Source: Prostheceraeus crozeri | Lineage: Eukaryota; Platyhelminthes; Polycladida; Euryleptidae | NCBI GenBank assembly: GCA_907163375.1 | Contig: CAJQUW010000473.1 | Span: 1-64,000, forward strand | Length of the DNA: 64,000 bases | Direction of reading: 5' to 3' | Part shown: positions 1 through 19,245 of the stretch, in pieces | Numbering within the stretch: position 1 is the stretch's first letter | Layout: each line of letters opens with the position of its first letter | Made by a program: the position numbers and the translations under genes | Notes under the pieces: generated by a model | Database searches by the model: none | What the model saw: the letters and a program-made list of their open reading frames with translations, nothing else | Told to the model about the DNA's origin: nothing

Positions 1-700
1 AAAAATTTTGCTGACCTCCCCCCCCTCTGGACAGCTCGCTTCGATTTTGGCTTCCAGTGGACGGATTTTGTCGTGCGATAGCTCGTTTGAAAGCTAAGAG
101 TGAGACAAATTCACTGAAAGAATCGGCTTGTTCCTATCTGTCTTCGTTTAGATGTGAGACGCCATTTAAGATTTTGGGACATTGGCAAAAAACGACAGAG
201 TTAGAATTTGGGACGTTTTGGGCTCTAGCTTCAAAACGAAGCATCGGATGGGAAAACGGATTTCAGATTTGGAATCAGCGTGAAATTCTCTATCTGTATG
301 GTGAGTTTCAAGTCAATCGGAGAGAAAAATTTCGCTGACTCCCCCCCCCTCTGGACAGCTTGCTTCGATCTTGGCTTCCAGTGGACGGATTTAGTCGTGC
401 CATAGCTCGTTTGAAAGCTAAGAGTGAGACAAATTCACTGAAAGAATCGGCTTGTTCCTATCTGTCTTCGTTTAGATGTGAGACGCCATTTAAGATTTTG
501 GGACATTGGCGAAAAACGACAGAGTTAGAATTTGGGACGTTTTGGGCTCTAGCTTCAAAACGAAGCATCGGATGGGAAAACGGATTTCAGATTTGGAATC
601 AGCGTGAAATTCTTTATCTGTATGGTGAGTTTCATGTCAATCGGAGAGTTTCAAGTCAATCGGAGAGAAGAATTTTCAACATTTTTCGGAAAAACGACAG
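1..700 (+). repeat. Left-arm ~325-bp tandem repeats with poly-C tracts
   Basis: Two nearly identical units (about 1-325 and 326-690) each open with a C8-C10 tract followed by TCTGGACAGCT and end with GTCAATCGGAGAGAA. A third, diverged unit runs from about 650 to 840 and leads directly into the TATA promoter at 902. Open frames across the units (57-338, 360-704) exist only because the unit length keeps them open. They show no recognisable domain and I do not call them genes. Tandem units feeding a core promoter resemble promoter monomers of some retroelements. Confidence 0.85.
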
Positions 701-901
701 TTAGAATTTTTGCGATGGCTGCCTACTGTAGAGCCAAAACGAAGCATCGGATGGGAAAACGGAGGCCAGATTCGGATTCAGCGTCAAATTCTACATGGAA
801 ATGGTGTATTTCCAGCTCAATCGGAGCACTAGAACCGGAGATAGACGGGATTTTTAGTGTTTGGATGATGGGTATTACGTCATCAGCTGATCGCCACACA
901 C

Positions 902-936
902 TATATAAGCTGGGAACCGACGGAGACTTGTCATTC
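902..936 (+). promoter_or_regulatory. Inward-facing core promoter, left arm (TATA + Inr)
   Basis: TATATAAG at 902-909 lies 31 bases upstream of the A of TCATTC (931-936), an exact match to the arthropod initiator TCAKTY. A DPE-like GGTCGT sits at 961-966. Transcription would run rightward into the structured region. GAG|GTAGGT at 957/958 could serve as an early splice donor. Confidence 0.7.
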
Positions 937-1326
937 AGACGAGAGCGATTGTCAGAGGTAGGTCGTCTCTCTGAGCTCCGATGATAGCTTCGGACATTCC
1001 AAATCCCGAGTTTCTGTAAGAAACCGACTTAGAAAATTTCATTGCTGATATCAGCTAAGGCGTCAGACTTAGAGGTTCGCCAGGAGATGGCCTTCGTCTC
1101 CAGGCCATAAAAGACTCCAAAACTTTAAAGGCTTGTAACTTTGCTTCTACAAGTCCGTTTGACTTGATTCAAAAAAGGTTCGGTCGCTATTGACCTGCCC
1201 TAAGTGATAGACTACTTATAAAATTTCATAAGTAGTGCTAAAAAGTTGAAAAATTTAAATTCACTAGTTTTGGAGGTTTTCTGGGGTTTTCGACCCTGCT
1301 GAAGTCAATGAAAGCATTTTTAATGA
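937..1326 (+). other. Hairpin-rich untranslated leader-like sequence
   Basis: No credible ORF. Perfect stems are packed closely: GTTTCT/AGAAAC around a 3-nt loop (1010-1024), the 12-bp palindrome GCTGATATCAGC (1044-1055), a 6-bp stem CTTGTA/TACAAG, GGTC/GACC around the loop GCTATT (1182-1195), and a 9-bp stem ACTACTTAT/ATAAGTAGT around an 8-nt loop (1211-1236). The right arm (about 16973-17362) keeps the same stems. Confidence 0.6.
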
Positions 1327-2027
1327 TGTCTGAGCCAGTCTTCTCATGCTATAAGCGGCTTTTCACTGAAAGCGAGCAAGACACGGAGAGTTTTGCTGTA
1401 ATATTCCACTGACAGGGTGTTCCTTCGGGACGGCGGACGATGCCGTAGTGATAAGTGTGGCAAGGGAATGTGTCATATTTGAGACCGTAACCGCTGGGAC
1501 AACTCATGTCTCATGTTGGGCATTTGACACAGCTCTCAACGTAGCACTTTGAACGCCAATCGGTTGAGTCTTAGCTATCTTGTCATGGGTGGCCTCTAAA
1601 CATCTCCATTGCAAAAACGCTGGTGAATCAAGCTCTCTACGGCTTGCTATCAAGCTGCTAAAAGTCTGTCCACCTCTTACCAACTCTACAGGTTTTCATG
1701 TCTGAGCCAGTCTTCTCATGCTATAAGCGGCTTTTCACTGAAAGCGAGCAAGACACGGAGAGTTTTGCTGTAATATTCCACTGACAGGGTGTTCCTTCGG
1801 GACGGCGGACGATGCCGTAGTGATAAGTGTGGCAAGGGAATGTGTCATATTTGAGACCGTAACCGCTGGGACAACTCATGTCTCATGTTGGGCATTTGAC
1901 ACAGCTCTCAACGTAGCACTTTGAACGCCAATCGGTTGAGTCTTAGCTATCTTGTCATGGGTGGCCTCTAAACATCTCCATTGCAAAACGCTGGTGAATC
2001 AAGCACTCTACGGCTTGCTATCAAGCT
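1327..2027 (+). repeat. Tandem duplication (372-bp period) carrying structured modules A and B
   Basis: 1327-1656 and 1699-2027 are near-identical copies offset by 372 bases. Each contains a structured module (about 1403-1580 and 1775-1952) with a C(TTCG)G tetraloop hairpin (loops 1424-1427 and 1796-1799) and ends in a GCTATC-loop hairpin. The mirror copies lie at about 16272-16972. The right-arm copy matching module B has two changes in this hairpin that weaken it, so its loop is not strictly kept everywhere. Confidence 0.85.
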
Positions 2028-2445
2028 GATCAAAGCAATAACTTGGGATGTTTCCTCAAGGTTTTCAAGTATGCTGAGTTCAAATCTGCTATCAGATTTC
2101 AAATTTAACTAAGACTAAGGCAGCTTTGAGGGGTTAGATCCCAGCTACTGTTCACTACCTTTGACTCGACGTTGCTGTTACCACTTCGGGGCAGTGACAA
2201 TGATGTCTTCAGCTGTAAATAGCGGGTATCGGGGAAGATCTCTCACTTCCCTAGTGATCAGTACAAGGCCTTCGGGCTGTCGACGGGATCGAGTGCCACT
2301 CACTACACTCAAATCTATCATTCCTCACTAAGTGTAAATTACTGACTATACATTTGTCCTGCTATCAGGTTGTTTTGACTTGCTATCTAGTTGAATAGTC
2401 TCTTGCTATCAAGAGATTCACCTCTGCTCATAAAGCACATCATCG
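2028..2445 (+). other. Non-coding stretch between structured modules
   Basis: No supportable gene. It contains four of the GCTATC hairpins (2088, 2361, 2382, 2405) and GC-rich patches around 2160-2310. The mirror lies at about 15855-16271. Confidence 0.5.
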
Positions 2446-2646
2446 CTGTAATACCTCCTTTGCTCGAGCGTTCCTTCGGGACGGCGGGTACTGCCGTAGA
2501 GGGATTGTGTTGCACGGGTTGTTCGTCGTTTGTTAGACCGAAACCTCTGAGCCGTTGCTCATGTTGGGCGTTCGACTTCATACTCAACGTGACGCTTTCT
2601 CTCACCAGGTCAGAGTACTTCAGCCATTCGACAAAGGTTAGTCTTT
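2446..2646 (+). ncRNA. Structured module C (diverged copy of A/B)
   Basis: Shares with modules A, B and D an ordered set of short blocks: TGTAATA, a GTTCC..GG hairpin, GGCGG, CCGTAG, TCATGTT and TCAACGT, over about 200 bases. The hairpin has a TTCG tetraloop at 2475-2478 closed by C-G. One-base length differences between copies fall between the conserved blocks, so a protein frame on either strand is not preserved; this favours RNA over coding sequence. The mirror copy is at about 15654-15854. Identity unknown; I could not match it to hammerhead, twister or HDV-type ribozymes. Confidence 0.45.
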
Positions 2647-2790
2647 ATGATATGGAGTAGAGTGAAATGTAATTCATTAGATGTCCCTTCAATGATTGCT
2701 CCCATGATAAACGTTGATGAGACAAATGAAATGATTCTCATCTTCCCTTTTCAATGATTGAAATCTACTAACACACTACCGTATAATCGT

Positions 2791-2902
2791 CCACTATGGG
2801 GCAAGACATGATAGAGCCTCCACGCGGTTCGCACTGGGCAGTCTTTAGACTGGCGAATACTATCATTAAGTTGAATCTGCTATCAGTCAACTTGAACGTT
2901 GC
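2791..2902 (+). repeat. 112-bp direct repeat E, copy 1
   Basis: Matches 3266-3377 over its whole length with few differences. It contains a CAGTC/GACTG hairpin with TTTA loop (2839-2852) and a GCTATC-loop hairpin at its end. It abuts the TATA box at 2917, so it may be promoter-proximal. The mirror is at about 15398-15509. Confidence 0.85.
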
Positions 2903-2916
2903 GTCGCGTTAGAGGG

Positions 2917-2924
2917 TATATAAA
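2917..2924 (+). promoter_or_regulatory. TATA box upstream of the 88-aa ORF
   Basis: TATATAAA, 32 bases upstream of the ATG at 2956. The short pyrimidine-rich leader between them repeats CATTT. The mirror TATA box is at 15376-15383 on the minus strand. Confidence 0.65.
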
Positions 2925-2955
2925 CCACTGCCTCTCATTTCATTTCATTTCAATC

Positions 2956-3222
2956 ATGCAGACGCCGAACAGTCAAGTCAGCTCTCCTCGCGGACCGCAG
3001 TTAAGGCCGCGAAATTTATTTGAGGAGTTTGTCAGGCTAGAGGAGCAAGACAGAGTTTTTAATAATCTTGCTCGGATTGGCAATCCGATGACAGCAACTG
3101 CTGTCAATCCAACGGAATGGCGCTACATTCCACTTTTTAGCCATGTACCAGTTAGTGTGGAAGTCGACAGTGCTACCAAAGAGAGAGTCAAAGACTCTCT
3201 CAGTAGAATTGGTAGGGTGTAA
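2956..3222 (+). CDS. 88-aa hypothetical protein, left arm
   Basis: I do not recognise this protein. I start it at the ATG at 2956 rather than the in-frame ATG at 2899, because the TATA box at 2917 would place the transcription start after 2899. It begins MQTPNSQ, followed by a Ser/Pro/Arg-rich segment and a charged region with FEEFVRLEEQDRVFNNLARIG. There is no signal peptide, membrane segment or cysteine motif. The protein is identical in the two arms. It sits between two direct repeats (E) and upstream of structured module D. The mild amphipathic charge pattern suggests a helical protein, perhaps nucleic-acid or coat associated; that is inference only. Confidence 0.5.
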   Translation: MQTPNSQVSSPRGPQLRPRNLFEEFVRLEEQDRVFNNLARIGNPMTATAVNPTEWRYIPLFSHVPVSVEVDSATKERVKDSLSRIGRV

Positions 3223-3265
3223 GATGACGTTACTCCCGAGAACGAACCACCGGCTCTCTTAAGGG

Positions 3266-3377
3266 CCACCATGGGGCAAGACATGATAGAACCTCCACGC
3301 GGTTTGCCCTGGGCAGTCTTCGGACTGGCGAATACTATCATTAAGTTGAATCTGCTATCAGTCAACTTGAACGTTGC
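3266..3377 (+). repeat. 112-bp direct repeat E, copy 2
   Basis: Second copy of repeat E, directly upstream of module D. The CAGTC/GACTG stem is unchanged but the loop is TTCG (3319-3322) instead of TTTA. The two copies bracket the 88-codon ORF cassette. The mirror is at about 14923-15034. Confidence 0.85.
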
Positions 3378-3388
3378 AAATGAAGTTC

Positions 3389-3595
3389 GGTGTAATACTT
3401 CCTTTCGACGGGCGTTCCTGTAAAGGGCGGCGGTGAAACCCGTAGCTATGTATACCGCAAGGGACATTCGGCAATGGTCAATCTTGTTAAACCTCTCTGC
3501 GTCATGTTTGCAAGTGATTGCCTCTGTCTCAACGTAGTATGCATTCGCGCCAGGGCGACATTTAGCCAACTGTCGAAGGTTGCCTAAAACTATCC
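3389..3595 (+). ncRNA. Structured module D (diverged copy, GNRA loop)
   Basis: Same block order as module C. Its hairpin has a GTAA loop (3420-3423) where A, B and C have TTCG, with one extra T-A pair closing it. In the right arm (about 14705-14911) the same loop reads GTGA on the sense strand. GTAA and GTGA are both GNRA tetraloops, and TTCG is the other classic stable loop. This holds only if the plus strand of the left arm is the RNA. A 159-codon frame on the opposite strand (3123-3602) is probably incidental. Confidence 0.5.
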
Positions 3596-3623
3596 ATTGC
3601 ATACGTTATGAGAACCATGAGTT

Positions 3624-3824
3624 CTACCTGTCTCTATCAATGAGATGAATTGATGAATGGAATGAAATGGGAGGACACTCACGCGTCACACGCAACATAA
3701 CACACTTCTCTCTTCCGTAGTCTAACAAGCTCTTTACACATGGATCGCAGTCGATTGCTATCCCTGTATCAGAAGTGTAAGCTATCTTAATTTTATCTAA
3801 CACTATTTCATCTACCATTATCAT
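3624..3824 (-). CDS. 66-aa hypothetical protein, left arm
   Basis: Unrecognised small ORF opposite in strand to the 88-aa gene. It has a plausible soluble composition, with two cysteines in DCDPC and an RDR C-terminus. The right-arm copy changes DCDPC to DCNPC. No promoter could be assigned. It could be an exon of a larger spliced product. Confidence 0.3.
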   Translation of the reverse strand: MIMVDEIVLDKIKIAYTSDTGIAIDCDPCVKSLLDYGREKCVMLRVTRECPPISFHSSIHLIDRDR

Positions 3825-3968
3825 CCATATGAAATGTTATAAGAATTGCAAGTTAAACTAAGTGTGCTACTATTTCCAAATGAAAAAGTATACATGGTTA
3901 AATCATCCACTGAAGCCCCATTCAAGTAAGTCAGTATGAAAGCAAAGATAATATGAAATAAAAATTTA

Positions 3969-4181
3969 TTATGGCATGTATTTCAAAAGGTCTTCATCGT
4001 CAATATCGTCCCAGAGTCTGGCTTCACATAGATTACAAAAACAGTTCACTTGCTTCAATCGTTCTTCTACCGCGAGCCTCACTTTGTCGATATACTCCCA
4101 CTCCGCTATAGTTCGTGGCTGGGAGTTAGGGGTGTACCATTCCCATAATTGGTGGAGGAATTTGGTGCTGGCGATCTCCAT
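3969..4181 (-). CDS. 70-aa acidic-tailed hypothetical protein, left arm
   Basis: The ATG at 4181 is used; an extra leading residue would need a GTG start. The protein is rich in Trp and acidic residues, has two cysteines spaced CFCNLC, and ends in WDDIDDEDLLKYMP. The stop codon overlaps a canonical AATAAA signal (TAATAAA, 3965-3970 on the minus strand), which supports a real 3' end here. The right-arm copy is identical. No known domain recognised. The acidic C-terminal tail and aromatic content are more protein-like than the neighbouring shadow frames. Confidence 0.4.
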   Translation of the reverse strand: MEIASTKFLHQLWEWYTPNSQPRTIAEWEYIDKVRLAVEERLKQVNCFCNLCEARLWDDIDDEDLLKYMP

Positions 4182-4194
4182 CACTATTCGTGAG

Positions 4195-4710
4195 TGTCGT
4201 TAGAAAGTGTATCATGGTTTGTAAAAGTTTTACTGCAACACAGGTTGATGTATAGTTAGAAAAGTTTGATCATCAACGTTGTATTCGTAAGTCTAGTCAG
4301 AAACTTTATCATGTTGTACAAAAGTTTTATTGCAACACAGGTTGATGTATAGTTAGAAAGTTTGATCATCAACGTTTTATTTGTAAGTCTAGTCAGAAAG
4401 TGCATCATGGTTTGCAAAGTTAGTGTAGTCAAATAATTTTACTGTAACACCCGTTTGAGAAAGTAAAGTCTGATCATCGAAGTTGTATTCGTGAGTGTCG
4501 TTAGAAAGTGTATCATTGTTTGTAAAAGTTTTACTGCAACACAGGTTGATGTATAGTTAGAAAAGTTTGATCATGACGTTTTATGAAACACACATGTCAT
4601 GAAATGTAAGCGTTAGTGTAGTCAAATAATTTACCGCGACGCACGTTTGTGAAAATAAAGTTTGATCATTGACGTTATATGACTGACCGAACTCATCACA
4701 GCACTAGAAA
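4195..4710 (+). repeat. ~100-bp tandem repeats, left arm
   Basis: The phrase CAGGTTGATGTATAGTTAGA starts at 4241, 4338 and 4542, a period of about 97-102 bases, with intervening diverged units marked by TTTGATCATCAACGTT. The mirror block is 13590-14105; an 86-codon frame there (13784-14044) is a by-product of the repeats. Confidence 0.8.
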
Positions 4711-5320
4711 GTTTTAGAAGGTTTTATTTACTGCACAGTGTAGATTGTCTTGTAACTTACTTTCACAGTGTTAGAAAGTTTTATTGGAGACAGTTGCCAA
4801 ATGTTTCCCTATTAGAAATTCAAACTTCATGACTGTTAGATTAGCTTCATCAGGTTTAGTAAAAGCAGTTTTCTACTGCAGTAAGACTGCGAGTTTAGAA
4901 TGTTATATGAAAACAGTGTTCATCACAGCGCTAGAAAGTTTTACTGCGCTGTGTAGATTGTTTCACACAAGGTCTTATAGTCAGCGTTGAATGTTTTATA
5001 AAACCAGATGTTGTCACACACGTTGAGTGTATGAGAGCTAGTTCCATGACATTGAATCGCATGGATTGTAAAGTTCATAATCCAAGGCTAGGCTCCTGTA
5101 CGGTTGGATTTAGGGTTTTATATTACATGCGTTAACCGTTCGTGTAGAATATGTGAAGCAGATGTTCGCTTAAATGCAAATGTTGAAATAAGTTTGTAAG
5201 AAATCTTTGACAGGTTGTTGTGAAACGTAGCGAACGTTGAAGAAATGTTTCTGCAGTCACACTCGTTAGCGTGCCAGCTTTACTAAATGTATTCTATTCT
5301 CCAATGAGGATTGTTGTCTA
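4711..5320 (+). other. AT-rich spacer upstream of the ORF cluster
   Basis: Holds further loosely repeated GTTAGAAAGTTTTA-type units. A 68-codon frame (4784-4990) lies inside them; it is probably not a gene. TTTCTGCAG at about 5250-5258 is a possible splice acceptor ahead of the next ORF. Confidence 0.4.
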
Positions 5321-5608
5321 ATGAGAATCAAGCCTTCCACAGTGAGAATCATTCCATCGTTGAATCATACAAGTGATGGACGCACATTCTCTCTTTGGGA
5401 TATCATTTTCAAAGTGAATGGGCTATATTATGGTCAGCACAAGGATAACAAAATAGCCTCTCTCTCGATATACACTGAATCCATCCTATATATTCCAAAG
5501 CCACCCAACGTAGATGACATTATTGACTTCCTTAACGGGGGTGGTACGAAGCGCAAGTCGGAGAAGAATGCTACCTCCAAACGCAAGTCAAGGAAAGAGA
5601 ATTGCTAA
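5321..5608 (+). CDS. 95-aa protein with basic C-terminus, left arm
   Basis: Unrecognised. The N-terminal ~70 residues look like a compact alpha/beta fold with DGRTFSLWDIIFKVNGLYYG and IASLSIYTESILYIPKPP. The last 20 residues are strongly basic (GTKRKSEKNATSKRKSRKE), consistent with a nuclear localisation or nucleic-acid-binding tail. The 3' end overlaps the RING-like ORF by 95 bases in another frame. The right-arm copy differs by one residue (Gly to Glu). The overlap and the change of frame suggest either compact viral-type coding or that splicing or frameshifting joins this ORF to the next. Confidence 0.5.
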   Translation: MRIKPSTVRIIPSLNHTSDGRTFSLWDIIFKVNGLYYGQHKDNKIASLSIYTESILYIPKPPNVDDIIDFLNGGGTKRKSEKNATSKRKSRKENC

Positions 5609-5768
5609 TCCTTTCCTAACTCTACCCTATGACAATTCGCTTATGTGCTTTGAGTGTCGTAGACGTGGTCTTATTAGATACATTTTACTTCTTCGTTGCC
5701 ATCATATCATTTGCGTATTTTGTCGTGAAAAGCATCGATGTAATTCTTCATTTTGCAATATGTTATAG
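5514..5768 (+). CDS. RING-like zinc-finger protein (84 aa), left arm
   Basis: The C-terminal half has the spacing C-x2-C-x12-C-x-H-x2-C-x2-C-x5-C-x3-C (CFEC, RCHHIICVFC, then C..C). This matches the first six ligands of a C3HC4 RING finger; the final pair is C-x3-C rather than C-x2-C. RING proteins usually act as E3 ubiquitin ligases, and small ones are common in large DNA viruses and some mobile elements. The N-terminal half is basic and overlaps the 95-aa ORF, so it may not be the true start; the finger could be an exon fused to either neighbour. Identical in both arms. Confidence 0.5.
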   Translation: MTLLTSLTGVVRSASRRRMLPPNASQGKRIANPFLTLPYDNSLMCFECRRRGLIRYILLLRCHHIICVFCREKHRCNSSFCNML

Positions 5769-5802
5769 AACGCTTCCTTAGATGTGTAAATTTCCGTTTT
5801 AG

Positions 5803-6351
5803 ACTTCTATCATCATTTTTATGGATTGTGAGGGTGAACCTGTACAGGAGCTCAGTGCTATTGCTATGAACAATTGGACATATCAGATTGTTAGTGTCTA
5901 TCATCAACATGCCAACTGTGATCCCAATGTTGATCAATGGGCGAGAAAACACATTCATGGACTTAATCTGAAATATTTGCAAGACTATGGCTTTTCTTGT
6001 GAGAGTGCTCTTCTTATTGACTTTAAACGATGGTTAGCTGCTTTCAATGTTATACGCATCTTTTGTAATAATCCTGGTAAGGAGAGGAAAGTATTTCCCA
6101 ATCTAATCATTGATGATATTTTGCTCCCGCCTTGGGATAGTAGAGTGAATCAACATTATCATGAAGTCACGAAACGTTTTAAGGATTTATGTGTTCCTAT
6201 TTTGTCTGTTCGTTGTAGTAGCTACGTTCATAACCAATGCTTCTTTCCTCCTTACCTCAACACTGCCAAAGTCCTGTATGGTTATCATTGCTCGCTGTAT
6301 GATAGTTACCAGCTGTATCTATTTTATCTCTTTCAAACCATTGATTTATAA
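5803..6351 (+). CDS. DEDDh-type exonuclease-like protein, left arm
   Basis: The frame opens right after a TAG that doubles as a splice-acceptor AG (pyrimidine-rich TTTCCGTTTTAG, ending 5802). The residues TSIIIF before the first ATG (5821) form the hydrophobic strand expected before an exonuclease motif I, so the protein probably begins in an upstream exon. From the ATG it is 176 aa. Visible motifs are DCEG with a following ELSAI (motif I, D-x-E), a NNPGKE segment where motif II would fall, and HCSLYD (H-x4-D, motif III of DEDDh enzymes). The motif II aspartate is not obvious, so activity is uncertain. A canonical AATAAA lies at 6374-6379 with a GT-rich stretch after it. Assignment rests on motifs only. 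Confidence 0.5.
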   Translation, partial: TSIIIFMDCEGEPVQELSAIAMNNWTYQIVSVYHQHANCDPNVDQWARKHIHGLNLKYLQDYGFSCESALLIDFKRWLAAFNVIRIFCNNPGKERKVFPNLIIDDILLPPWDSRVNQHYHEVTKRFKDLCVPILSVRCSSYVHNQCFFPPYLNTAKVLYGYHCSLYDSYQLYLFYLFQTIDL

Positions 6352-6373
6352 TGCATGCTTGTTATAGTGATTC

Positions 6374-6379
6374 AATAAA
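6374..6379 (+). terminator. Poly(A) signal of the exonuclease-like gene
   Basis: AATAAA 23 bases after the stop codon, followed by GTTGTTGTTTTC, a reasonable GT-rich downstream element. Mirrored in the right arm. Confidence 0.65.
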
Positions 6380-6485
6380 TGTTACTATGAGAAGAGTTGT
6401 TGTTTTCATGCAATGAATGGGTTAGATAAAGGGCGATCATGTCTTTCTCAAACGACTGTGGAACATTGATTTCCATGATGAAGAT

Positions 6486-9400
6486 TTAAACAGTTAGATT
6501 CGATGACGAATAAGATTTATTAGTTTGCAAGTTAGACTAAGCGTTCTATTATTTGTAAATGAAAGATATAGTTTCAACAGTGTGTACGTTAGAAATAAAG
6601 TTTTATCTGTTTGTAAAATGAGATTGTAGGATTTACTAGTTTGCAAGTTAGACTAAGCGTTCTACTATTTGTAAATGAAAGATATAGTTTCAATAGTTTA
6701 CAGATTACAAAATAAAGTTTCAATAGTGTTTATGTTAAAAATAAAGTTTAAGCTGTTTGTGTGTTAGAAATAGAATAAAGTTTCAACAGTTTGTTGATTA
6801 AAAATAAAGTTTCAACAGTGTGTACGTTAGAAATAAAGTTTTATCTGTTTGTAAATGAGATTGTAGGATTTACTAGTTTACAAGTTAAGAATAAAGTTTT
6901 ATCTGCTTGTATGTCAGAAATGAAATAAAGTTTCACCAGTTTAAAAGTTAAGAATAAAGTTTCAATAGTGTGTATGTTAAGAATAAAGTTCTGTCTGTTT
7001 ACATGTTAGAAATAAAATGAAGTTTCGCCAGTTTACAAGTTAAGAATAAATTTTATCTGCTTGTATGTTAGAAATGAAATAAAGTTTCACCAGTTTACAA
7101 GTTAAAAATAAAGTTTCAATAGTTTGCAAGTTAAAACTAATGTTTCAATAGTGCGTATGTTAAGAATAAAGTTTTATCTGTTTGTATGTTAGAAATAAAA
7201 TGAAGTTTCACCAGTTTACAAGTTAAGAATAAAGTTTTATCTGCTTGTATGTTAGAATTAAAACAAAGTTTCACCAGTTTACAAGTTAAAAAATAAAGTT
7301 TCAATAGTGTGTACGTTAGAAATAAAGTTTCAATAGCGTGTATGTTAAGAATAAAGTTTTATCTGTTTGTATGTTAGAAATAAAATGAAGTTTCACCAGT
7401 TTACAAGTTAAGAATAAAGTTTTATCTGCTTGTATGTTAGAATTAAAACAAAGTTTCACCAGTTTACAAGTTAAAAAATAAAGTTTCAATTGTGTGTACG
7501 TTAGAAATAAAGTTTCAATAGCGTGTATGTTAAGAATAAAGTTTTATCTGTTTGTATGTTAGAAATAAAATGAAAGTTCATCAGTTTACAAGCTAATAAT
7601 AAAGTTTTATCTGTTTGTATGTTAGAAATAAAACAAAGTTTCAACCGTTAACAAGTTAAAAATAAAGTTTCAGATGAAAATAAAGTTTCAATAGTGTATA
7701 TGATGGAAATAAAGTTTAAGCGCTTTGTGCGTTAGAAATAAAGTTTCAGCCGTTTACAAGTTCAAAATAAAGTTTCAACAGTGTGTACGTTAAGAATAAA
7801 GTTCTATCTGTTTATATGTTAGAAATAAGAATGAAGGTTCACCAGTTTACAAGTTAAGAATAAAGTTTTATCTGCTTGTATGTCAGAAATGAAATAAAGT
7901 TTCACCAGTTTAAAAGTTAAGAATAAAGTTTCAATAGTGTGTATGTTAAGAATAAAGTTTTATCTATTTGCAGGTTAGAATTAAAGCAAAGTTTCAACCG
8001 TTTACAAGTTAAAAATAAAGTTTCAATAGTTAACACGTTAAAAATAAAGTTTCAATAGTGTATATGTTAAGAATAAAGTTCTATCCGTTTGTATGTTAGA
8101 AATAAAAATGAAGGTTCACCAGTTTACAAGTTAAGAATAAAGTTTTATCTGCTTGCATGTCAGAAATGAAATAAAGTTTCACCAGTTTAAAAGTTAAGAA
8201 TAAAGTTTCAATAGTATGTATGTTGAGAATAAAGTTCTATCTGTTTATATGTTAGAAATAAAATGAAGTTTCGCCAGTTTACAAGTTAAGAATAAATTTT
8301 ATCTGCTTGTATGTTAGAAATGAAATAAAGTTTGACCAGTTTACAAGTTAAAAAATAAAGTTTCAATAGTGTGTTTGTATGTTAGAAATAAAGTTTCAAT
8401 AGTGTGTATGTTAAGAATTAAGTTTTATCTGTTTGTATGTTAGAAATAAAACAAAGTTTCAACCGTTAACAAGTTAAAAATAAAGTTTCAGATTAAAATA
8501 AAGTTTCATTCAATAGTGTGTATGATGGAAATAAAGTTTAAGCGCTTTGCGCGTTAGAAATAAAGTTTCAGCCGTTTACAAGTTAAAAATAAAGTTTCAA
8601 TAGTGTGCATGTTAAGAATAAAGTTTTATCTGTCTATATGTTAGAAATAAAATGAAGGTTCACCAGTTTACAAGTTAAGAATAAAGTTTTATCTGCTTGT
8701 ATGTTAGAATTAAAACAAAGTTTCACCAGTTTACAAGTTAAAAAATAAAGTTTCAATTGTGTGTACGTTAGAAATAAAGTTTCAATAGCGTGTATGTTAA
8801 GAATAAAGTTTTATCTGTTTGTATGTTAGAAATAAAATGAAGGTTCATCAGTTTACAAGTTAATAATAAAGTTTTATCTGTTTGTATGTTAGAAATAAAA
8901 CAAAGTTTCAACCGTTAACAAGTTAAAAATAAAGTTTCAATAGTTTTCAAGTTAAAACTAATGTTTCAATAGTGCGTATGTTAAGAATAAAGTTTTATCT
9001 GTTTGTATGTTGGAAATAAAATGAAGCTTCGCCAGTTTACAAGTTAAGAATAACGTTTTATCTGCTTGCATGTTAGAATTAAAACAAAGTTTCACCAGTT
9101 TACAAGTTAAAAAATAAAGTTTCAATAGTGTGCACGTTAGAAATAAAGTTTCAACCGTTTACAAGTTAAAAATAAAGTTTCAACAGTGTCTACGTTAGAA
9201 ATAAAGTTTTATCTGTTTGTAAAGTACGATCGTAGGATTTACTAGTTTGCAAGTTAGACTCAGCATTCTACTAGTTGTAATTGAAAATATCGTTTCAACA
9301 GTTTACAGATTAAAATAAAGTTTCAATAGTGTGTATGATGGAAATAAAGTTTAAGCGCTTTGTGCGTTAGAAATAAAGTTTCAGCCGTTTACAAGTTAAA

Positions 9401-9820: not shown

Positions 9821-9824
9821 AAGC

Positions 9825-9844
9825 TTGACAAACGCGTTTGTCAA
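9825..9844. repeat. Perfect 20-bp palindrome at the arm junction
   Basis: TTGACAAACGCGTTTGTCAA reads the same on both strands. Left of it, about 130 bases (9690-9820) have no counterpart on the right; array sequence resumes in the opposite orientation at about 9865. This is where repeat polarity switches. Confidence 0.9.
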
Positions 9845-9864
9845 CATATTGATTCATTAGAAAC

Positions 9865-11815
9865 ATTTTGTTTCTAACATATAAACAGCTAAAACTTTAT
9901 TTCTAACGTGCACACTATTGAAACTTTATTTTTAACTTGTAAACGGCTGAAACTTTATTTCTAACGCGCAAAGCGCTTAAACTTTATTTCCATCATACAC
10001 ACTATTGAATGAAACTTTATTTTAATCTGAAACTTTATTTTTAACTTGTTAACGGTTGAAACTTTGTTTTATTTCTAGCATACAAACAGATAAAACTTTA
10101 TTCTTAACATACACATTATTGAAACTTCATTTCTAACATACAAACACACTATTGAAACTTTATTTTTTAACTTGTAAACTGGTCAAACTTTATTTCATTT
10201 CTAACATACAAGCAGATAAACTTTATTCTTAACTTGTAAACTGGTGGAACTTCATTTTATTTCTAACATACAAACAGATAAAACTTTATTCTTAACATAC
10301 ACGCTATTGAAACTTTATTTCTAACGTACACACTATTGAAACTTTATTTTTTAACTTGTAAACTGGTGAAACTTTGTTTTAATTCTAACATACAAGCAGA
10401 TAAAACTTTATTCTTAACTTGTAAACTGGTGGAACTTCATTTTATTTCTAACATACAAACAGATAAAACTTTATTCTTAACATACGCACTATTGAAACAT
10501 TAGTTTTAACTTGCAAACTATTGAAACTTTATTTTTAACTTGTAAACGGTTGAAACTTTGCTTTAATTCTAACCTACAAATAGATAAAACTTTATTCTTA
10601 ACATACACACTATTGAAACTTTATTCTTAACTTTTAAACTGGTGAAACTTTATTTCATTTCTGACATACAAGCAGATAAAACTTTATTCTTAACTTGTAA
10701 ACTGGTGAACCTTCATTCTTATTTCTAACATATAAACAGATAGAACTTTATTCTTAACGTACACACTGTTGAAACTTTATTCTGAACTTGTAAACGGCTG
10801 AAACTTTATTTCTAACGCACAAAGCGCTTAAACTTTATTTCCATCATATACACTATTGAAACTTTATTTTCATCTGAAACTTTATTTTTAACTTGTTAAC
10901 GGTTGAAACTTTGTTTTATTTCTAACATACAAACAGATAAAACTTTATTATTAGCTTGTAAACTGATGAACTTTCATTTTATTTCTAACATACAAACAGA
11001 TAAAACTTTATTCTTAACATACACGCTATTGAAACTTTATTTCTAACGTACACACTATTGAAACTTTATTTTTAACTTGTAAACTGGTGAAACTTTATTT
11101 CATTTTTAACATACAAGCAGATAAAACTTTATTCTTAACTTGTAAACTGGTGGAACTTCATTTTATTTCTAACATACAAACAGATAAAACTTTATTCTTA
11201 ACATACGCACTATTGAAACATTAGTTTTAACTTGCAAACTATTGAAACTTTATTTTTAACTTGTAAACTGGCGAAACTTCATTTTATTTCTAACATGTAA
11301 ACAGACAGAACTTTATTCTTAACATACACACTATTGAAACTTTATTCTTAACTTTTAAACTGGTGAAACTTTATTTCATTTCTGACATACAAGCAGATAA
11401 AACTTTATTCTTAACTTGTAAACTAGTAAATCCTACAATCTCATTTACAAACAGATAAAACTTTATTTCTAACGTACACACTGTTGAAACTTTATTTTTA
11501 ATCAACAAACTGTTGAAACTTTATTCTATTTCTAACACACAAACAGCTTAAACTTTATTTTTAACATAAACACTATTGAAACTTTATTTTGTAATCTGTA
11601 AACTATTGAAACTATATCTTTCATTTACAAATAGTAGAACGCTTAGTCTAACTTGCAAACTAGTAAATCCTACAATCTCATTTTACAAACAGATAAAACT
11701 TTATTTCTAACGTACACACTGTTGAAACTATATCTTTCATTTACAAATAATAGAACGCTTAGTCTAACTTGCAAACTAATAAATCTTATTCGTCATCGAA
11801 TCTAACTGTTTAAAT
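9865..11815 (-). repeat. AATAAA-dense central array, right half (~1.95 kb)
   Basis: Same unit families as the left half but reverse-complemented and about 1.4 kb shorter, with a different order of units. AATAAA is on the minus strand, so both arms read AATAAA toward the centre. Confidence 0.9.
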
Positions 11816-11947
11816 CTTCATCATGGAAATCAATGTTCCACAGTCGTTTGAGAAAGACATGATCGCCCTTTATCTAACCCATTCATTGCATGAAAACAAC
11901 AACTCTTCTCATAGTAACATTTATTGAATCACTATAACAAGCATGCA

Positions 11948-12496
11948 TTATAAATCAATGGTTTGAAAGAGATAAAATAGATACAGCTGATAACTATCAT
12001 ACAGCGAGCAATGATAACCATACAGGACTTTGGCAGTGTTGAGGTAAGGAGGAAAGAAGCATTGGTTATGAACGTAGCTACTACAACGAACAGACAAAAT
12101 AGGAACACATAAATCCTTAAAACGTTTCGTGACTTCATGATAATGTTGATTCACTCTACTATCCCAAGGCGGGAGCAAAATATCATCAATGATTAGATTG
12201 GGAAATACTTTCCTCTCCTTACCAGGATTATTACAAAAGATGCGTATAACATTGAAAGCAGCTAACCATCGTTTAAAGTCAATAAGAAGAGCACTCTCAC
12301 AAGAAAAGCCATAGTCTTGCAAATATTTCAGATTAAGTCCATGAATGTGTTTTCTCGCCCATTGATCAACATTGGGATCACAGTTGGCATGTTGATGATA
12401 GACACTAACAATCTGATATGTCCAATTGTTCATAGCAATAGCACTGAGCTCCTGTACAGGTTCACCCTCACAATCCATAAAAATGATGATAGAAGT
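11948..12496 (-). CDS. DEDDh-type exonuclease-like protein, right arm
   Basis: Mirror of 5803-6351 with an identical 176-aa protein from the ATG, the same upstream acceptor, and AATAAA on the minus strand at about 11920-11925. The two copies face each other across the central array and are read toward it. Confidence 0.5.
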   Translation of the reverse strand, partial: TSIIIFMDCEGEPVQELSAIAMNNWTYQIVSVYHQHANCDPNVDQWARKHIHGLNLKYLQDYGFSCESALLIDFKRWLAAFNVIRIFCNNPGKERKVFPNLIIDDILLPPWDSRVNQHYHEVTKRFKDLCVPILSVRCSSYVHNQCFFPPYLNTAKVLYGYHCSLYDSYQLYLFYLFQTIDL

Positions 12497-12530
12497 CTAA
12501 AACGGAAATTTACACATCTAAGGAAGCGTT

Positions 12531-12785
12531 CTATAACATATTGCAAAATGAAGAATTACATCGATGCTTTTCACGACAAAATACGCAAATGATATGATGG
12601 CAACGAAGAAGTAAAATGTATCTAATAAGACCACGTCTACGACACTCAAAGCACATAAGCGAATTGTCATAGGGTAGAGTTAGGAAAGGATTAGCAATTC
12701 TCTTTCCTTGACTTGCGTTTGGAGGTAGCATTCTTCTCCGACTTGCGCTTCGTACCACCCCCGTTAAGGAAGTCAATAATGTCAT
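12531..12785 (-). CDS. RING-like zinc-finger protein (84 aa), right arm
   Basis: Mirror of 5514-5768 with all eight zinc-ligand candidates preserved and an identical predicted protein. Confidence 0.5.
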   Translation of the reverse strand: MTLLTSLTGVVRSASRRRMLPPNASQGKRIANPFLTLPYDNSLMCFECRRRGLIRYILLLRCHHIICVFCREKHRCNSSFCNML

Positions 12786-12978
12786 CTACGTTGGGTGGCT
12801 TTGGAATATATAGGATGGATTCAGTGTATATCGAGAGAGAGGCTATTTTGTTATCCTTGTGCTGACCATAATATAGCTCATTCACTTTGAAAATGATATC
12901 CCAAAGAGAGAATGTGCGTCCATCACTTGTATGATTCAACGATGGAATGATTCTCACTGTGGAAGGCTTGATTCTCAT
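12691..12978 (-). CDS. 95-aa protein with basic C-terminus, right arm
   Basis: Mirror of 5321-5608; Glu replaces Gly in the FKVNGLYYG segment. Reading frame intact and overlapping the RING-like ORF in the same way. Confidence 0.5.
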   Translation of the reverse strand: MRIKPSTVRIIPSLNHTSDGRTFSLWDIIFKVNELYYGQHKDNKIASLSIYTESILYIPKPPNVDDIIDFLNGGGTKRKSEKNATSKRKSRKENC

Positions 12979-13589
12979 TAGACAACAATCCTCATTGGAG
13001 AATAGAATACATTTAGTAAAGCTGGCACGCTAACGAGTGTGACTGCAGAAACATTTCTTCAACGTTCGCTACGTTTTCACAACAACCTGTCAAAGATTTC
13101 TTACAAACTTATTTCAACATTTGCATTTAAGCGAACATCTGCTTCACATATTCTACACGAACGGTTAACGCATGTAATATAAAACCCTAAATCCAACCGT
13201 ACAGGAGCCTAGCCTTGGATTATGAACTTTACAATCCATGCGATTCAATGTCATGGAACTAGCTCTCATACACTCAACGTGTGTGACAACATCTGGTTTT
13301 ATAAAACATTCAACGCTGACTATAAGACCTTGTGTGAAACAATCTACACAGCGCAGTAAAACTTTCTAGCGCTGTGATGAACACTGTTTTCATATAACAT
13401 TCTAAACTCGCAGTCTTAGTGCAGTAGAAAACTGCTTTTACTAAACCTGATGAAGCTAATCTAACAGTCATGAAGTTTGAATTTCTAATAGGGAAACATT
13501 TGGCAACTGTCTCCAATAAAACTTTCTAACACTGTGAAAGTAAGTTACAAGACAATCTACACTGTGCAGTAAATAAAACCTTCTAAAAC

Positions 13590-14105
13590 TTTCTAGTGCT
13601 GTGATGAGTTCGGTCAGTCATATAACGTCAATGATCAAACTTTATTTTCACAAACGTGCGTCGCGGTAAATTATTTGACTACACTAACGCTTACATTTCA
13701 TTACATGTGTGTTTCATAAAACGTCATGATCAAACTTTTCTAACTATACATCAACCTGTGTTGCAGTAAAACTTTTACAAACAATGATACACTTTCTAAC
13801 GACACTCACGAATACAACTTCGATGATCAGACTTTACTTTCTCAAACGGGTGTTACAGTACAATTATTTGACTACACTAACTTTGCAAACCATGATGCAC
13901 TTTCTGACTAGACTTACAAATAAAACGTTGATGATCAAACTTTCTAACTATACATCAACCTGTGTTGCAATAAAAATTTTGTACAACATGATAAAGTTTC
14001 TGACTAGACTTACGAATACAACGTTGATGATCAAACTTTTCTAACTATACATCAACCTGTGTTGCAGTAAAACTTTTACAAACCATGATACACTTTCTAA
14101 CGACA
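13590..14105 (-). repeat. ~100-bp tandem repeats, right arm
   Basis: Mirror of 4195-4710 with minor base differences. Confidence 0.8.
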
Positions 14106-14118
14106 CTCACGAATAGTG

Positions 14119-14331
14119 ATGGAGATCGCCAGCACCAAATTCCTCCACCAATTATGGGAATGGTACACCCCTAACTCCCAGCCACGAACTATAGCGGAGT
14201 GGGAGTATATCGACAAAGTGAGGCTCGCGGTAGAAGAACGATTGAAGCAAGTGAACTGTTTTTGTAATCTATGTGAAGCCAGACTCTGGGACGATATTGA
14301 CGATGAAGACCTTTTGAAATACATGCCATAA
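14119..14331 (+). CDS. 70-aa acidic-tailed hypothetical protein, right arm
   Basis: Mirror of 3969-4181, identical protein, with the same stop/AATAAA overlap just after 14329. Confidence 0.4.
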   Translation: MEIASTKFLHQLWEWYTPNSQPRTIAEWEYIDKVRLAVEERLKQVNCFCNLCEARLWDDIDDEDLLKYMP

Positions 14332-14475
14332 TAAATTTTTATTTCATATTATCTTTGCTTTCATACTGACTTACTTGAATGGGGCTTCAGTGGATGATTT
14401 AACCATGTATACTTTTTCATTTGGAAATAGTAGCACACTTAGTTTAACTTGCAATTCTTATAACATTTCATATGG

Positions 14476-14676
14476 ATGATAATGGTAGATGAAATAGTGT
14501 TAGATAAAATTAAGATAGCTTACACTTCTGATACAGGGATAGCAATCGACTGCAATCCATGTGTAAAGAGCTTGTTAGACTACGGAAGAGAGAAGTGTGT
14601 TATGTTGCGTGTGACGCGTGAGTGTCCTCCCATTTCATTCCATTCATCAATTCATCTCATTGATAGAGACAGGTAG
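14476..14676 (+). CDS. 66-aa hypothetical protein, right arm
   Basis: Mirror of 3624-3824 with one Asp-to-Asn change. Otherwise identical and open throughout. Confidence 0.3.
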   Translation: MIMVDEIVLDKIKIAYTSDTGIAIDCNPCVKSLLDYGREKCVMLRVTRECPPISFHSSIHLIDRDR

Positions 14677-15077
14677 AACTCATGGTTCTCATAACGTATG
14701 CAATGGATAGTTTTAGGCAACCTTCGACAGTTGGCTAAATGTCGCCCTGGCGCGAATGCATACTACGTTGCGACAGAGGCAATCACTTGCAAACATGACG
14801 CAGAGAGGTTTAACAAGATTGACCATTGCCGAATGTCCCTTGCGGTATACATAGCTACGGGTTTCACCGCCGCCCTTCACAGGAACGCCCGTCGAAAGGA
14901 AGTATTACACCGAACTTCATTTGCAACGTTCAAGTTGACTGATAGCAGATTCAACTTAATGATAGTATTCGCCAGTCCGAAGACTGCCCAGGGCAAACCG
15001 CGTGGAGGTTCTATCATGTCTTGCCCCATGGTGGCCCTTAAGAGAGCCGGTGGTTCGTTCTCGGGAGTAACGTCATC

Positions 15078-15344
15078 TTACACCCTACCAATTCTACTGA
15101 GAGAGTCTTTGACTCTCTCTTTGGTAGCACTGTCGACTTCCACACTAACTGGTACATGGCTAAAAAGTGGAATGTAGCGCCATTCCGTTGGATTGACAGC
15201 AGTTGCTGTCATCGGATTGCCAATCCGAGCAAGATTATTAAAAACTCTGTCTTGCTCCTCTAGCCTGACAAACTCCTCAAATAAATTTCGCGGCCTTAAC
15301 TGCGGTCCGCGAGGAGAGCTGACTTGACTGTTCGGCGTCTGCAT
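15078..15344 (-). CDS. 88-aa hypothetical protein, right arm
   Basis: Mirror copy of 2956-3222 with an identical predicted protein and the same TATA box (15376-15383). Its preservation without stop or frameshift in both arms is consistent with selection, recent duplication or gene conversion. Confidence 0.5.
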   Translation of the reverse strand: MQTPNSQVSSPRGPQLRPRNLFEEFVRLEEQDRVFNNLARIGNPMTATAVNPTEWRYIPLFSHVPVSVEVDSATKERVKDSLSRIGRV

Positions 15345-17362
15345 GATTGAAATGAAATGAAATGAGAGGCAGTGGTTTATATACCCTCTAACGCGACGCA
15401 ACGTTCAAGTTGACTGATAGCAGATTCAACTTAATGATAGTATTCGCCAGTCTAAAGACTGCCCAGTGCGAACCGCGTGGAGGCTCTATCATGTCTTGCC
15501 CCATAGTGGACGATTATACGGTAGTGTGTTAGTAGATTTCAATCATTGAAAAGGGAAGATGAGAATCATTTCATTTGTCTCATCAACGTTTATCATGGGA
15601 GCAATCATTGAAGGGACATCTAATGAATTACATTTCACTCTACTCCATATCATAAAGACTAACCTTTGTCGAATGGCTGAAGTACTCTGACCTGGTGAGA
15701 GAAAGCGTCACGTTGAGTATGAAGTCGAACGCCCAACATGAGCAACGGCTCAGAGGTTTCGGTCTAACAAACGACGAACAACCCGTGCAACACAATCCCT
15801 CTACGGCAGTACCCGCCGTCCCGAAGGAACGCTCGAGCAAAGGAGGTATTACAGCGATGATGTGCTTTATGAGCAGAGGTGAATCTCTTGATAGCAAGAG
15901 ACTATTCAACTAGATAGCAAGTCAAAACAACCTGATAGCAGGACAAATGTATAGTCAGTAATTTACACTTAGTGAGGAATGATAGATTTGAGTGTAGTGA
16001 GTGGCACTCGATCCCGTCGACAGCCCGAAGGCCTTGTACTGATCACTAGGGAAGTGAGAGATCTTCCCCGATACCCGCTATTTACAGCTGAAGACATCAT
16101 TGTCACTGCCCCGAAGTGGTAACAGCAACGTCGAGTCAAAGGTAGTGAACAGTAGCTGGGATCTAACCCCTCAAAGCTGCCTTAGTCTTAGTTAAATTTG
16201 AAATCTGATAGCAGATTTGAACTCAGCATACTTGAAAACCTTGAGGAAACATCCCAAGTTATTGCTTTGATCAGCTTGATAGCAAGCCGTAGAGTGCTTG
16301 ATTCACCAGCGTTTTGCAATGGAGATGTTTAGAGGCCACCCATGGCAAGATAGCTAAGACTCAACCGATTGGCGTTCAAAGTGCTACGTTGAGAGCTGTG
16401 TCAAATGCCCAACATGAGACATGAGTTGTCCCAGCGGTTACGGTCTCAAATATGACACATTCCCTTGCCACACTTATCACTACGGCATCGTCCGCCGCCC
16501 CGAACGAACACCCTGTCAGTGGAATATTACAGCAAAACTCTCCGTGTCTTGCTCGCTTTCAGTGAAAAGCCGCTTATAGCATGAGAAGACTGGCTCAGAC
16601 ATGAAAACCTGTAGAGTTGGTAAGAGGTGGACAGACTTTTAGCAGCTTGATAGCAAGCCGTAGAGAGCTTGATTCACCAGCGTTTTGCAATGGAGATGTT
16701 TAGAGGCCACCCATGACAAGATAGCTAAGACTCAACCGATTGGCGTTCAAAGTGCTACGTTGAGAGCTGTGTCAAATGCCCAACATGAGACATGAGTTGT
16801 CCCAGCGGTTACGGTCTCAAATATGACACATTCCCTTGCCACACTTATCACTACGGTATCGTCCGCCGTCCCGAAGGAACACCCTGTCAGTGGAATATTA
16901 CAGCAAAACTCTCCGTGTCTTGCTCGCTTTCAGTGAAAAGCCGCTTATAGCATGAGAAGACTGGCTCAGACATCATTAAAAATGCTTTCATTGACTTCAG
17001 CAGGGTCGAAAACCCCAGAAAACCTCCAAAACTAGTGAATTTAAATTTTTCAACTTTTTAGCACTACTTATGAAATTTTATAAGTAGTCTATCACTTAGG
17101 GCAGGTCAATAGCGACCGAACCTTTTTTGAATCAAGTCAAACGGACTTGTAGAAGCAAAGTTACAAGCCTTTAAAGTTTTGGAGTCTTTTATGGCCTGGA
17201 GACGAAGGCCATCTCCTGGCGAACCTCTAAGTCTGACGCCTTAGCTGATATCAGCAATGAAATTTTCTAAGTCGGTTTCTTACAGAAACTCGGGATTTGG
17301 AATGTCCGAAGCTATCATCGGAGCTCAGAGAGACGACCTACCTCTGACAATCGCTCTCGTCT

Positions 17363-17397
17363 GAATGACAAGTCTCCGTCGGTTCCCAGCTTATATA
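17363..17397 (-). promoter_or_regulatory. Inward-facing core promoter, right arm
   Basis: Exact mirror of the left promoter: CTTATATA at 17390-17397 and GAATGA at 17363-17368, giving TATATAAG and TCATTC on the minus strand. The two promoters point at each other across the palindrome. Confidence 0.7.
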
Positions 17398-17599
17398 GTG
17401 TGTGGCGATCAGCTGATGACGTAATACCCATCATCCAAACACTAAAAATCCCGTCTATCTCCGGTTCTAGTGCTCCGATTGAGCTGGAAATACACCATTT
17501 CCATGTAGAATTTGACGCTGAATCCGGATCTGGCCTCCGTTTTCCCATCCGATGCTTCGTTTTGGCTCTACAGTAGGCAGCCATCGCAAAAATTCTAAC

Positions 17600-19245
17600 T
17601 CGTTTTTCCGAAAAATGTTGAAAATTCTTCTCTCCGATTGACTTGAAACTCTCCGATTGACATGAAACTCACCATACAGATAAAGAATTTCACGCTGATT
17701 CCAAATCTGAAATCCGTTTTCCCATCCGATGCTTCGTTTTGAAGCTACAGCCCAAAACGTCCCAAATTCTAACTCTGTCGTTTTTCGCCAATGTCCCAAA
17801 ATCTTAAATGGCGTCTCACATCTAAACGAAGACAGATAGGAACAGGCCGATTCTTTCAGTGAATTTGTCTCACTCTTAGCTTTCAAACGAGCTATCGCAC
17901 GACAAAATCCGTCCACTGGAAGCCGAAATCGAAGCGAGCTGTCCAGAGGGGGGGGGAGGTCAGCAAAATTTTTTCTCTCCGATTGACTTGAAACTCACCA
18001 TACAGATAGAGAATTTCACGCTGATTCCAAATCTGAAATCCGTTTTCCCATCCGATGCTTCGTTTTGAAGCTAGAGCCCAAAACGTCCCAAATTCTAACT
18101 CTGTCGTTTTTCGCCAATGTCCCAAAATCTTAAATGGCGTCTAAACGAAGACAGATAGGAACAAGCCGATTCTTTCACTGAATTTGTCTCACTCTTAGCT
18201 TTCAAACGAGCTATGGCACGACAAAATCCGTCCACTGGAAGCCAAAAATCGAAGCGAGCTGTCCAGAGGGGGGGGGACGTCAGCGAAAATTTTTTCTCTC
18301 CGATTGCGTTCAAATTCACCATACCGATGCAGAATTTCACGCTGAATCCGAATCATGCCTCCGTTTTCTCATCCGATGGTTCGTTTTGGCGCTACACACC
18401 AAAACGTCCCAAATTCTAACTCAGTCGTTTTTTCGAAAAAAAAATTGAAATTTTTTTTAGCCCTTGGACTAAAAAACTCACCATACCATCCAGCACGACA
18501 CTCTATCTTCCAGAGGGTTTTCTATTTCACACTCGACCTCACTCCCTCAACCAACAACCAACCCACGTACACAACCACATCACGAAGAAAACACGAAAAA
18601 CACACACACAATAAGTCAAACTAATCCGGTCGCCGCCCAAGTCCACCACACACTCTACGTTCTCTTTCCGGGGGGGGGGGAGTCAGCGAACATTTTGTGA
18701 ACGTAGACCAACCTGGCCGGCACACCACGACAGACCTCTGTCGTTCCAGAGGGGGGGGGGGACGTCAGCGAAAATTTTTTCTCTCCGATTGACTTGAAAC
18801 TCACCATAGCGATGCAGAATTTCACGCTGAATCCGAATCTGACCTCCGTTTTCTCATCCGATGCTTCGTTTTGACGCTACACACCAAAACGTCCCAAATT
18901 CTAACTCTGTCGTTTTTCGAAAAATGTTGAAAATTTTTTCTCACCGATTGCCTTGAAACTCACCATACCGATGCAGAATTTCACGCTGAATACGAATCCG
19001 ACCTCCGTTTTCTCATCCGACCACTCCTTCCACTCGAAACAACCCATTTTACAACCCAACATTCAGCAGATTGCACGAAAAACATCACACACTATAGCCT
19101 CAAGACTAATCCTGGCGGTCGCCCAAGTCCACCACGACACTCTATCGTTCCAGGGGGGGGGACGTCAGCGAACATTTTGTGAACCCACCTGGCCGGCACA
19201 CCACGACAGACCTCTGTCGTTCCAGAGGGGGGGGGACGTCAGCGA
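17600..19245 (-). repeat. Right-arm ~325-bp tandem repeats plus degenerate outer copies
   Basis: 17610-17961 and 17961-18298 mirror the two left units, including G-tracts of about 10 bases. Beyond the mirrored part, diverged copies continue at about 18299-18470, 18735-19020 and 19140-19245, each marked by a G8-G12 tract followed by a GTCAGCGAA-like motif. A shorter block containing CTGGCCGGCACACCACGACA occurs twice (about 18713 and 19190). The array ends in GGCGGCCATCTTG at about 19246, after which the sequence becomes ordinary AT-rich DNA. This places the outer right edge of the palindromic element near 19245. Confidence 0.75.

Follow-up and report, generated by a model that had tools for sequence, protein, structure and literature searches.

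The 64,000-nucleotide stretch analysed here, hereafter the window (positions 1 to 64,000 of contig CAJQUW010000473.1, assembly GCA_907163375.1, from the polyclad flatworm Prostheceraeus crozeri), begins with an imperfect palindrome that occupies its first 19.3 kb. This palindrome is real and represents a single member of a dispersed family, probably of palindromic, non-autonomous mobile elements of about 20 kb that use the machinery of Polintons (Mavericks) in trans. The element behaves like a Polinton-mobilised satellite and is not classed as a Polinton itself, because no Polinton gene is recognised in it. Each arm contains a cassette, termed T2, in which a TATA box, an open reading frame (ORF) of 88 amino acids (aa), a histone-type stem-loop, and a hepatitis delta virus (HDV)-like ribozyme follow one another in that order.

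The window corresponds to contig C392 from base 1 in an assembly of 2.05 Gb and 14,165 contigs, and the left terminus of the palindrome is absent because the window begins at the contig end. The left arm (1..9677, + strand), whose outer end is lost there, and the right arm (9865..19291, - strand) flank an asymmetric axis spacer of 187 nt (9678..9864). The arms are inverted and collinear, as the initial annotation had proposed, with positions 1-7960 aligning to 18294-10310 at 96.8% identity over 8014 columns. Compared with its mirror, the left arm shows 15 substitutions and 3 indel events over positions 500-6512, and 14 substitutions over bases 1-500. The array arms at 9574-9677 and 9865-9968 are 97% complementary, and the central arrays end on either side of the spacer, which places the axis near 9771; the perfect 20-bp palindrome at 9825-9844, previously regarded as the centre, is therefore off-axis, and the right edge formerly set at 19245 is corrected to 19291. 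The central array is AT-rich, with abundant AATAAA on the sense strand (6512..9677, + strand; mirror 9865-11787, - strand), and its length difference between arms was borne out, at about 3.3 kb on the left and about 1.95 kb on the right within limits set by the analyst. The non-synonymous arm differences described earlier were found in the 95-aa and 66-aa ORFs, one in each (5421 and 3746), whereas the single change in the 176-aa ORF is synonymous (6309) and the 88-aa and 84-aa ORFs are unchanged; two further differences (3422, 3529) fall inside a 159-aa antisense ORF that was not taken for a gene.

Copies elsewhere, whose existence the initial annotation had left to be checked, were found with a 3-kb query in at least 59 matching places, a lower bound from 40 scored candidates among 5144, many of them being inverted pairs on the same contig. 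Six further loci were examined, namely C116, C6711, C12081, C10087, and C7278 with both arms and C5827 with one, and all five of the other two-armed copies are palindromic and share the outer arm of the window. Copies vary in how many 324-bp subterminal repeats they have and in how long the array is; in the window, two such repeats stand in the left arm (1..648, + strand) and two, together with partial diverged copies, in the right arm (17649..19243, - strand). The copy in C7278 is without the 95/84/176-aa cluster, and that in C10087 carries some 5 kb of unrelated sequence at its centre, where a DUF1258-like ORF was noted (L140, 939-4300) as a weak match below the cut-off (E 1.2e-4). No named family matching the arms was found, no repeat library having been searched, and the element has Polinton-type ends.

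The copies end in ...TTACTACT, which reads inward as 5'-AGTAGTAA (19284..19291, - strand, in the window). All three copies in which both ends were read are flanked by 6-bp target duplications (AATATC in C116, CAAATG in C6711, and TATGAC in C12081), as is the Polinton in contig C10109, and like that Polinton the element has 5'-AG termini on long terminal inverted repeats (TIRs), with AGTAGTAA compared with AGTAGT. A single end was read in C5827, C7573, and the window, the right terminus of C7278 was not seen, and the ends of C10087 lie outside the stretches examined. Two end types can be distinguished, alpha (the window, C12081, and the left end of C7278) and beta (C116, C6711, C5827, and C7573). 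The beta end has 1065 genome matches with at most 3 mismatches, its reversed control having 0, and arms were confirmed behind it at the four beta loci just named. A hand count among 100 listed beta ends gave 21 facing pairs, 14 of which are spaced 17.7-24.9 kb apart, the remaining seven lying 10.2, 28.1, 33.7, 37.8, 40.5, 40.5, and 43.7 kb apart.

Polintons are present in the same genome. A DNA_pol_B_2 profile search gave at least 176 matches from 88 scored candidates among 18,708, with dozens of those listed having open frames near 1200 aa. The Polinton in C10109 (422697-440921) has 750-bp TIRs that are 98.8% alike, AGTAGT ends, and the duplication GTCTTG, and encodes PolB together with an A32-like ATPase, a double-jelly-roll capsid protein, and an rve integrase, the last three above the Pfam cut-offs. 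A second locus, C6304:57296-74664, is an integrated palindromic Polinton in which the left half occurs twice, inverted, with the TIR at both ends; its arms are 99.8% alike over 6970 bases, about 110 nt occur once at the axis, and the whole is flanked by the 6-bp duplication CTCTAG. On the simplest reading of this sequence, the palindrome formed before integration. The proposal of the initial annotation that a linear virus-like DNA had become palindromic and then integrated is thus upheld in kind by the 6-bp duplications, the Polinton-like ends, and the palindromic Polinton, but its tail-to-tail dimer, if understood as one of hairpin-ended DNA, is not supported, given the asymmetric spacer, the dispersal of the element, and the palindromic structure of all five other two-sided copies.

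A comparison of 16 arms from 10 loci over 1261 columns demonstrates that the two arms of a copy are paired. Within a copy the arms are 0-3 substitutions apart, with a mean of 1.7 over 6 copies, whereas arms of different copies are on average 6.3 apart (114 pairs). Nine columns, representing eight events, show a state found in both arms of a single copy and nowhere else, in four of the six copies (four in C7573, three in C10087, and one each in C6711 and C116). In C7573 the 88-aa ORF of either arm has an identical 2-bp deletion. This pairing fits one arm having served as template for the other, which might proceed through snap-back or gene conversion.

The T2 cassette comprises the TATA box TATATAA (2917..2923, + strand; mirror 15377-15383, - strand), the 88-aa ORF (2956..3222, + strand; right arm 15078..15344, - strand), the histone-type 3' stem-loop GGCTCT-CTTA-AGGGCC followed by ACC (3252..3270, + strand, with the stem-loop itself at 3252-3267; right arm 15033..15048, - strand), and the HDV-like ribozyme (3273..3341, + strand; right arm 14959..15027, - strand), and is the same in both arms over 540 bases. 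The predicted ribozyme cut, at 3272/3273, lies 5 nt past the stem; histone mRNAs end 4-5 nt after the stem. The stem-loop has one mismatch to the histone 3' consensus GGYYYTTTTMARRRCC, with 2 hits against 0.11 expected, and a pattern widened to fit the stem-loop gives 2 hits and 0 in 100 shuffles. The ribozyme candidate contains a G1-U wobble and a GCGAA joining segment, which we take to be HDV-like motifs, and a nested double-pseudoknot descriptor, drafted after the candidate was known, has 2 hits in both strands of the 64 kb (one per arm) and 4 in 448 shuffled strands (500-base blocks). A further ribozyme copy lies upstream at 2798..2866 (+ strand; mirror 15434-15502, - strand); two of its P1 pairs are broken, and it has no stem-loop. 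The search of IMG/VR for the stem-loop followed by GGG returned 0 matches.

The cassette is abundant and its junction is not tied to one gene. Genome-wide, 13,477 matches to the 34-base stem-loop/ribozyme junction, inside or outside palindromes, were counted at up to 3 mismatches (reversed control 0), and a variant stem-loop pattern occurs at 38 places (control 0), of which 15 were examined, covering all 9 of one variant and 6 of the other 29. The ribozyme continues after the stem-loop at all 15 places, and the junction stands behind at least three different small ORFs: the 88-aa ORF (3), an acidic ORF of 83-85 aa (3), and the tail of a 195-aa ORF (7), with a possible fourth peptide in two short stretches. 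In C20:104300-106400 (L174), 195-, 88-, and 83-aa ORFs stand in tandem, each followed by the stem-loop and the ribozyme start, and the same arrangement is seen in C8 with the 88-aa ORF and two 83-aa ORFs; the 195-aa protein has weak coiled-coil-type matches only. A script retrieved 36 ribozyme-like 69-mers, 33 with the stem-loop, a count in which overlapping stretches were counted twice and the best-match setting lost most upstream copies (17 were found separately). Among 12 distinct stem-loop-linked ribozymes, 282 of 288 base pairs are kept. The 88-aa ORF is intact in 14 of 16 arms, and between the window and L163 it differs by 10.0 synonymous changes per 59.7 sites and 9.0 non-synonymous changes per 204.3 sites (uncorrected ratio 0.26). 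Cleavage by the T2 ribozyme and function of the stem-loop are predicted from architecture, copy number, and constraint.

The inner genes form a second unit, and the 88-, 95-, 84-, and 176-aa ORFs of the initial annotation are present in both arms. The 95-aa ORF lies at 5321..5608 (+ strand; mirror 12691-12978, - strand), the 84-aa RING-like ORF at 5514..5768 (+ strand; mirror 12531-12785, - strand), and the 176-aa DEDDh-exonuclease-like ORF at 5821..6351 (+ strand; mirror 11948-12478, - strand). The RING-like assignment comes from a weak PF14634 match under the Pfam cut-off (E 0.33, 11.4/27.9 bits), and a homologue search yielded no candidate sharing three words. The 176-aa ORF is intact in all nine full-length hits, and its protein family comprises 122 database clusters at E <=1, its own included, with the conserved features D-x-E, P-x-K-E, C and H, and H-C-S-L-Y-D; in alignment A5, D-x-E is nearly invariant and the H and D of H-C-S-L-Y-D are invariant. 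This pattern resembles that of DEDDh exonucleases, whose motifs are D-x-E, motif II, and H-x4-D, but Pfam RNase_T was detected in only 1 of 23 members (E 0.032), a PDB profile search gave a lyase only (E 0.069), and scans of IMG/VR and GTDB, dependent on short conserved peptides, confirmed no relatives; a loose IMG/VR pattern matched at least 120 stretches, which were judged chance and not used. In the central array, the left arm has 86 AATAAA motifs on its sense strand against one on the opposite strand, and the right arm 51 against one, with a downstream GU-rich stretch in 33 and 21 cases, respectively, by the analyst's pattern. Such an array would be a fitting place for polyadenylation of the inner genes' transcripts.

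The promoters face inward, as had been reported, with TATATAA twice per arm; the outer one, T1, combines it with a CATTC cap-like motif (902..936, + strand; mirror 17363-17397, - strand). The structured RNA and hairpin modules of the initial annotation stand as sequence modules, comprising copies M1 and M2 (1326..2035, + strand; mirror 16265-16973) and the related M3 (about 2447-2665) and M4 (about 3391-3612, both + strand), which have a mean column identity of 71%, but most fold no better than shuffles. In 150-nt windows, z < -3 was obtained in 4 of 65 on the + strand (801, 1101, 3001, and 4001), most being near 0, in 1 of 65 on the - strand, and in 0 of 62 from host sequence. Hairpins with a CTAT loop are concentrated on the arm's sense strand, where 8 of 51 CTAT occurrences are enclosed by stems of at least 4 bp, compared with 0 of 49 on the opposite strand and 6 of 330 in host sequence. 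At 1647-2413 (+ strand), hairpins combine a constant CTAT loop with variable stems.

These features may be joined in a single scheme, whose mobilisation in trans, snap-back, ribozyme cleavage, SLBP use, and S-phase expression we infer. The protein-primed polymerase of a Polinton would replicate the linear DNA from its AGTAGT ends, the displaced strand would snap back and be copied, so that both arms are remade from a single arm, and the Polinton integrase would insert the product, generating the 6-bp target duplication. Each arm would then express a small gene modelled on a replication-dependent histone gene, with a TATA box, short leader, small ORF, and stem-loop, the HDV-like ribozyme making the 3' end instead of U7-directed cleavage, and the resulting mRNA would be bound by SLBP, free of poly(A), and available in S phase. 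Messages of the inner exonuclease/RING unit would instead be polyadenylated at the signals within the central array. Judgement is evenly balanced on the broader proposal of a mobile-element lineage with histone-mimic genes, having interchangeable ORFs, ribozyme-made ends, and U7-free S-phase mRNAs, in thousands of copies, and in palindromes, at least for the copies read, that are kept by snap-back on Polinton machinery.

Several observations weigh against this account. The window element shares with the C10109 Polinton only the terminal hexamer and the duplication length, that Polinton being of the one family read to both ends, and the genome yielded no Polinton ending in the alpha or beta sequence of the element. 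The 100 zero-mismatch beta ends listed, on contigs up to C5109 and compared by hand, include none on a PolB-listed contig; the 73-base alpha end, as a DNA query of the genome with very common words skipped, matched nothing, not even itself, and for three further Polinton families the ends were sought at guessed positions without success. The arms of C12081 split at 3 sites and are not sisters, and gene conversion between arms would explain the pairing as well as snap-back. Rfam scores are below gathering both for the ribozyme (26.8/44, 25.9/50, and 16.2/35 bits) and for the stem-loop (18.6/34 bits), and changes within the 12 ribozyme sequences comprise 5 that preserve a pair, 6 that break one, and 0 two-sided compensatory changes.

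A possible, though not a likely, alternative is a distinct kind of virus-like replicon that does not depend on Polintons and whose replication genes are as yet unrecognised. The element's own ends of two types, the more than a thousand beta ends, the many cassettes, and the conserved exonuclease-like family are in its favour, but no polymerase or integrase is recognised in the scanned ORFs, the ends and target duplications resemble those of Polintons, and the genome is rich in PolB genes. Less probable still is a cut-and-paste transposon of the Foldback type that has very long TIRs and no relation to Polintons. Foldback elements have long inverted arms with subterminal tandem repeats, as this element does, but its 6-bp duplication and AGTAGT end match the C10109 Polinton and no transposase is recognised; the earlier statement that transposase, integrase, reverse transcriptase (RT), and capsid signatures are lacking agrees with the Pfam scan of seven element ORFs, which found none of them. 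An integrated concatemer junction of a hairpin-telomere (pox/asfarvirus-like) genome, which would account for the inverted arms, the AT-rich array beside the axis, and the inward genes, is mostly refuted and very improbable, since the 20-bp palindrome is off-axis beside an asymmetric spacer, the outer ends carry target duplications, and the copies are dispersed. An assembly artefact or host segmental palindrome is equally improbable: the window does begin at a contig end, and long palindromes often break assemblies, but the copies lie at several loci that differ in their flanks and target duplications, and the arm differences are scattered substitutions. A Terminon-like element was rejected, no RT being recognised.

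Beyond the palindrome, the window contains what is probably a long terminal repeat retrotransposon at 58146-62840, with two direct 425-bp copies 98.8% alike and gag-/RT-like ORFs between them, a Harbinger-type transposase ORF (29965-30681, - strand; HTH_Tnp_4, DDE_Tnp_4), and a piggyBac-type transposase ORF (33646-35037, - strand; DDE_Tnp_1_7). Helicase_C and DEAD-box-like exons at 24506-25159 and 38402-38680 (both - strand) represent host gene sequence.

If the reading of histone-mimic genes in palindromes kept by Polinton machinery is correct, the cassette would be a natural gene 3'-end device uniting a self-cleaving ribozyme with a histone stem-loop, palindromic defective genomes of a virus-like transposon could become a multi-copy genomic family, and the replication mode of Polintons would be testable from genome sequence. 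In the library covered by the literature search, no paper combines the literal terms 'histone stem-loop' and 'HDV-like ribozyme', and among the matches listed in wider searches no title or abstract opening described a stem-loop/ribozyme 3'-end device.

Among known systems, Polintons are described as being on a scale of 15-20 kb (PMC4028283). The element resembles them in size scale, AGTAGT termini, and 6-bp duplications, as in C10109, but is wholly palindromic, and the gene set of PolB, integrase, ATPase, and capsid was not recognised in its ORF list or in the Pfam scan; its content is instead the histone-like cassette, the exonuclease-like cluster, and the array. Replication-dependent histone genes have a TATA box, a cap motif, a short ORF, and a 3' stem-loop with an ACC flank. 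The cassette is similar in its TATA box, CATTC-like cap, short open ORF, and 3' stem-loop with the ACC flank, whereas its ORFs are non-histone, a ribozyme replaces the U7 target, and its loop begins with C. Symmetric recombinants of adenovirus are symmetric defective genomes. Snapback genomes of adeno-associated virus are likewise described among the snapback or symmetric defective genomes of DNA viruses (PMC8235507). The element shares with snapback genomes an inverted duplication with one end on both sides, of which C6304 is the Polinton equivalent, but, unlike them, it is found inserted at several sites in the genome and has a gene set of its own. HDV-like ribozymes are described in R2 and other retrotransposons (PMC3774820). 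The ribozyme of the element shares their nested-pseudoknot fold, G1-U wobble, and GCGAA joining segment; theirs sit at the 5' junction of a retroelement, whereas that of the element sits at a gene 3' end directly after a stem-loop, with no RT recognised. The Terminons of bdelloid rotifers are described as giant elements with RT, exonucleases, and hammerhead ribozymes at telomeres (PMC6431247). The likeness is that of a giant animal element with ribozymes and exonucleases, and the difference is that Terminons encode RT, carry ribozymes of the hammerhead type, and are telomeric.

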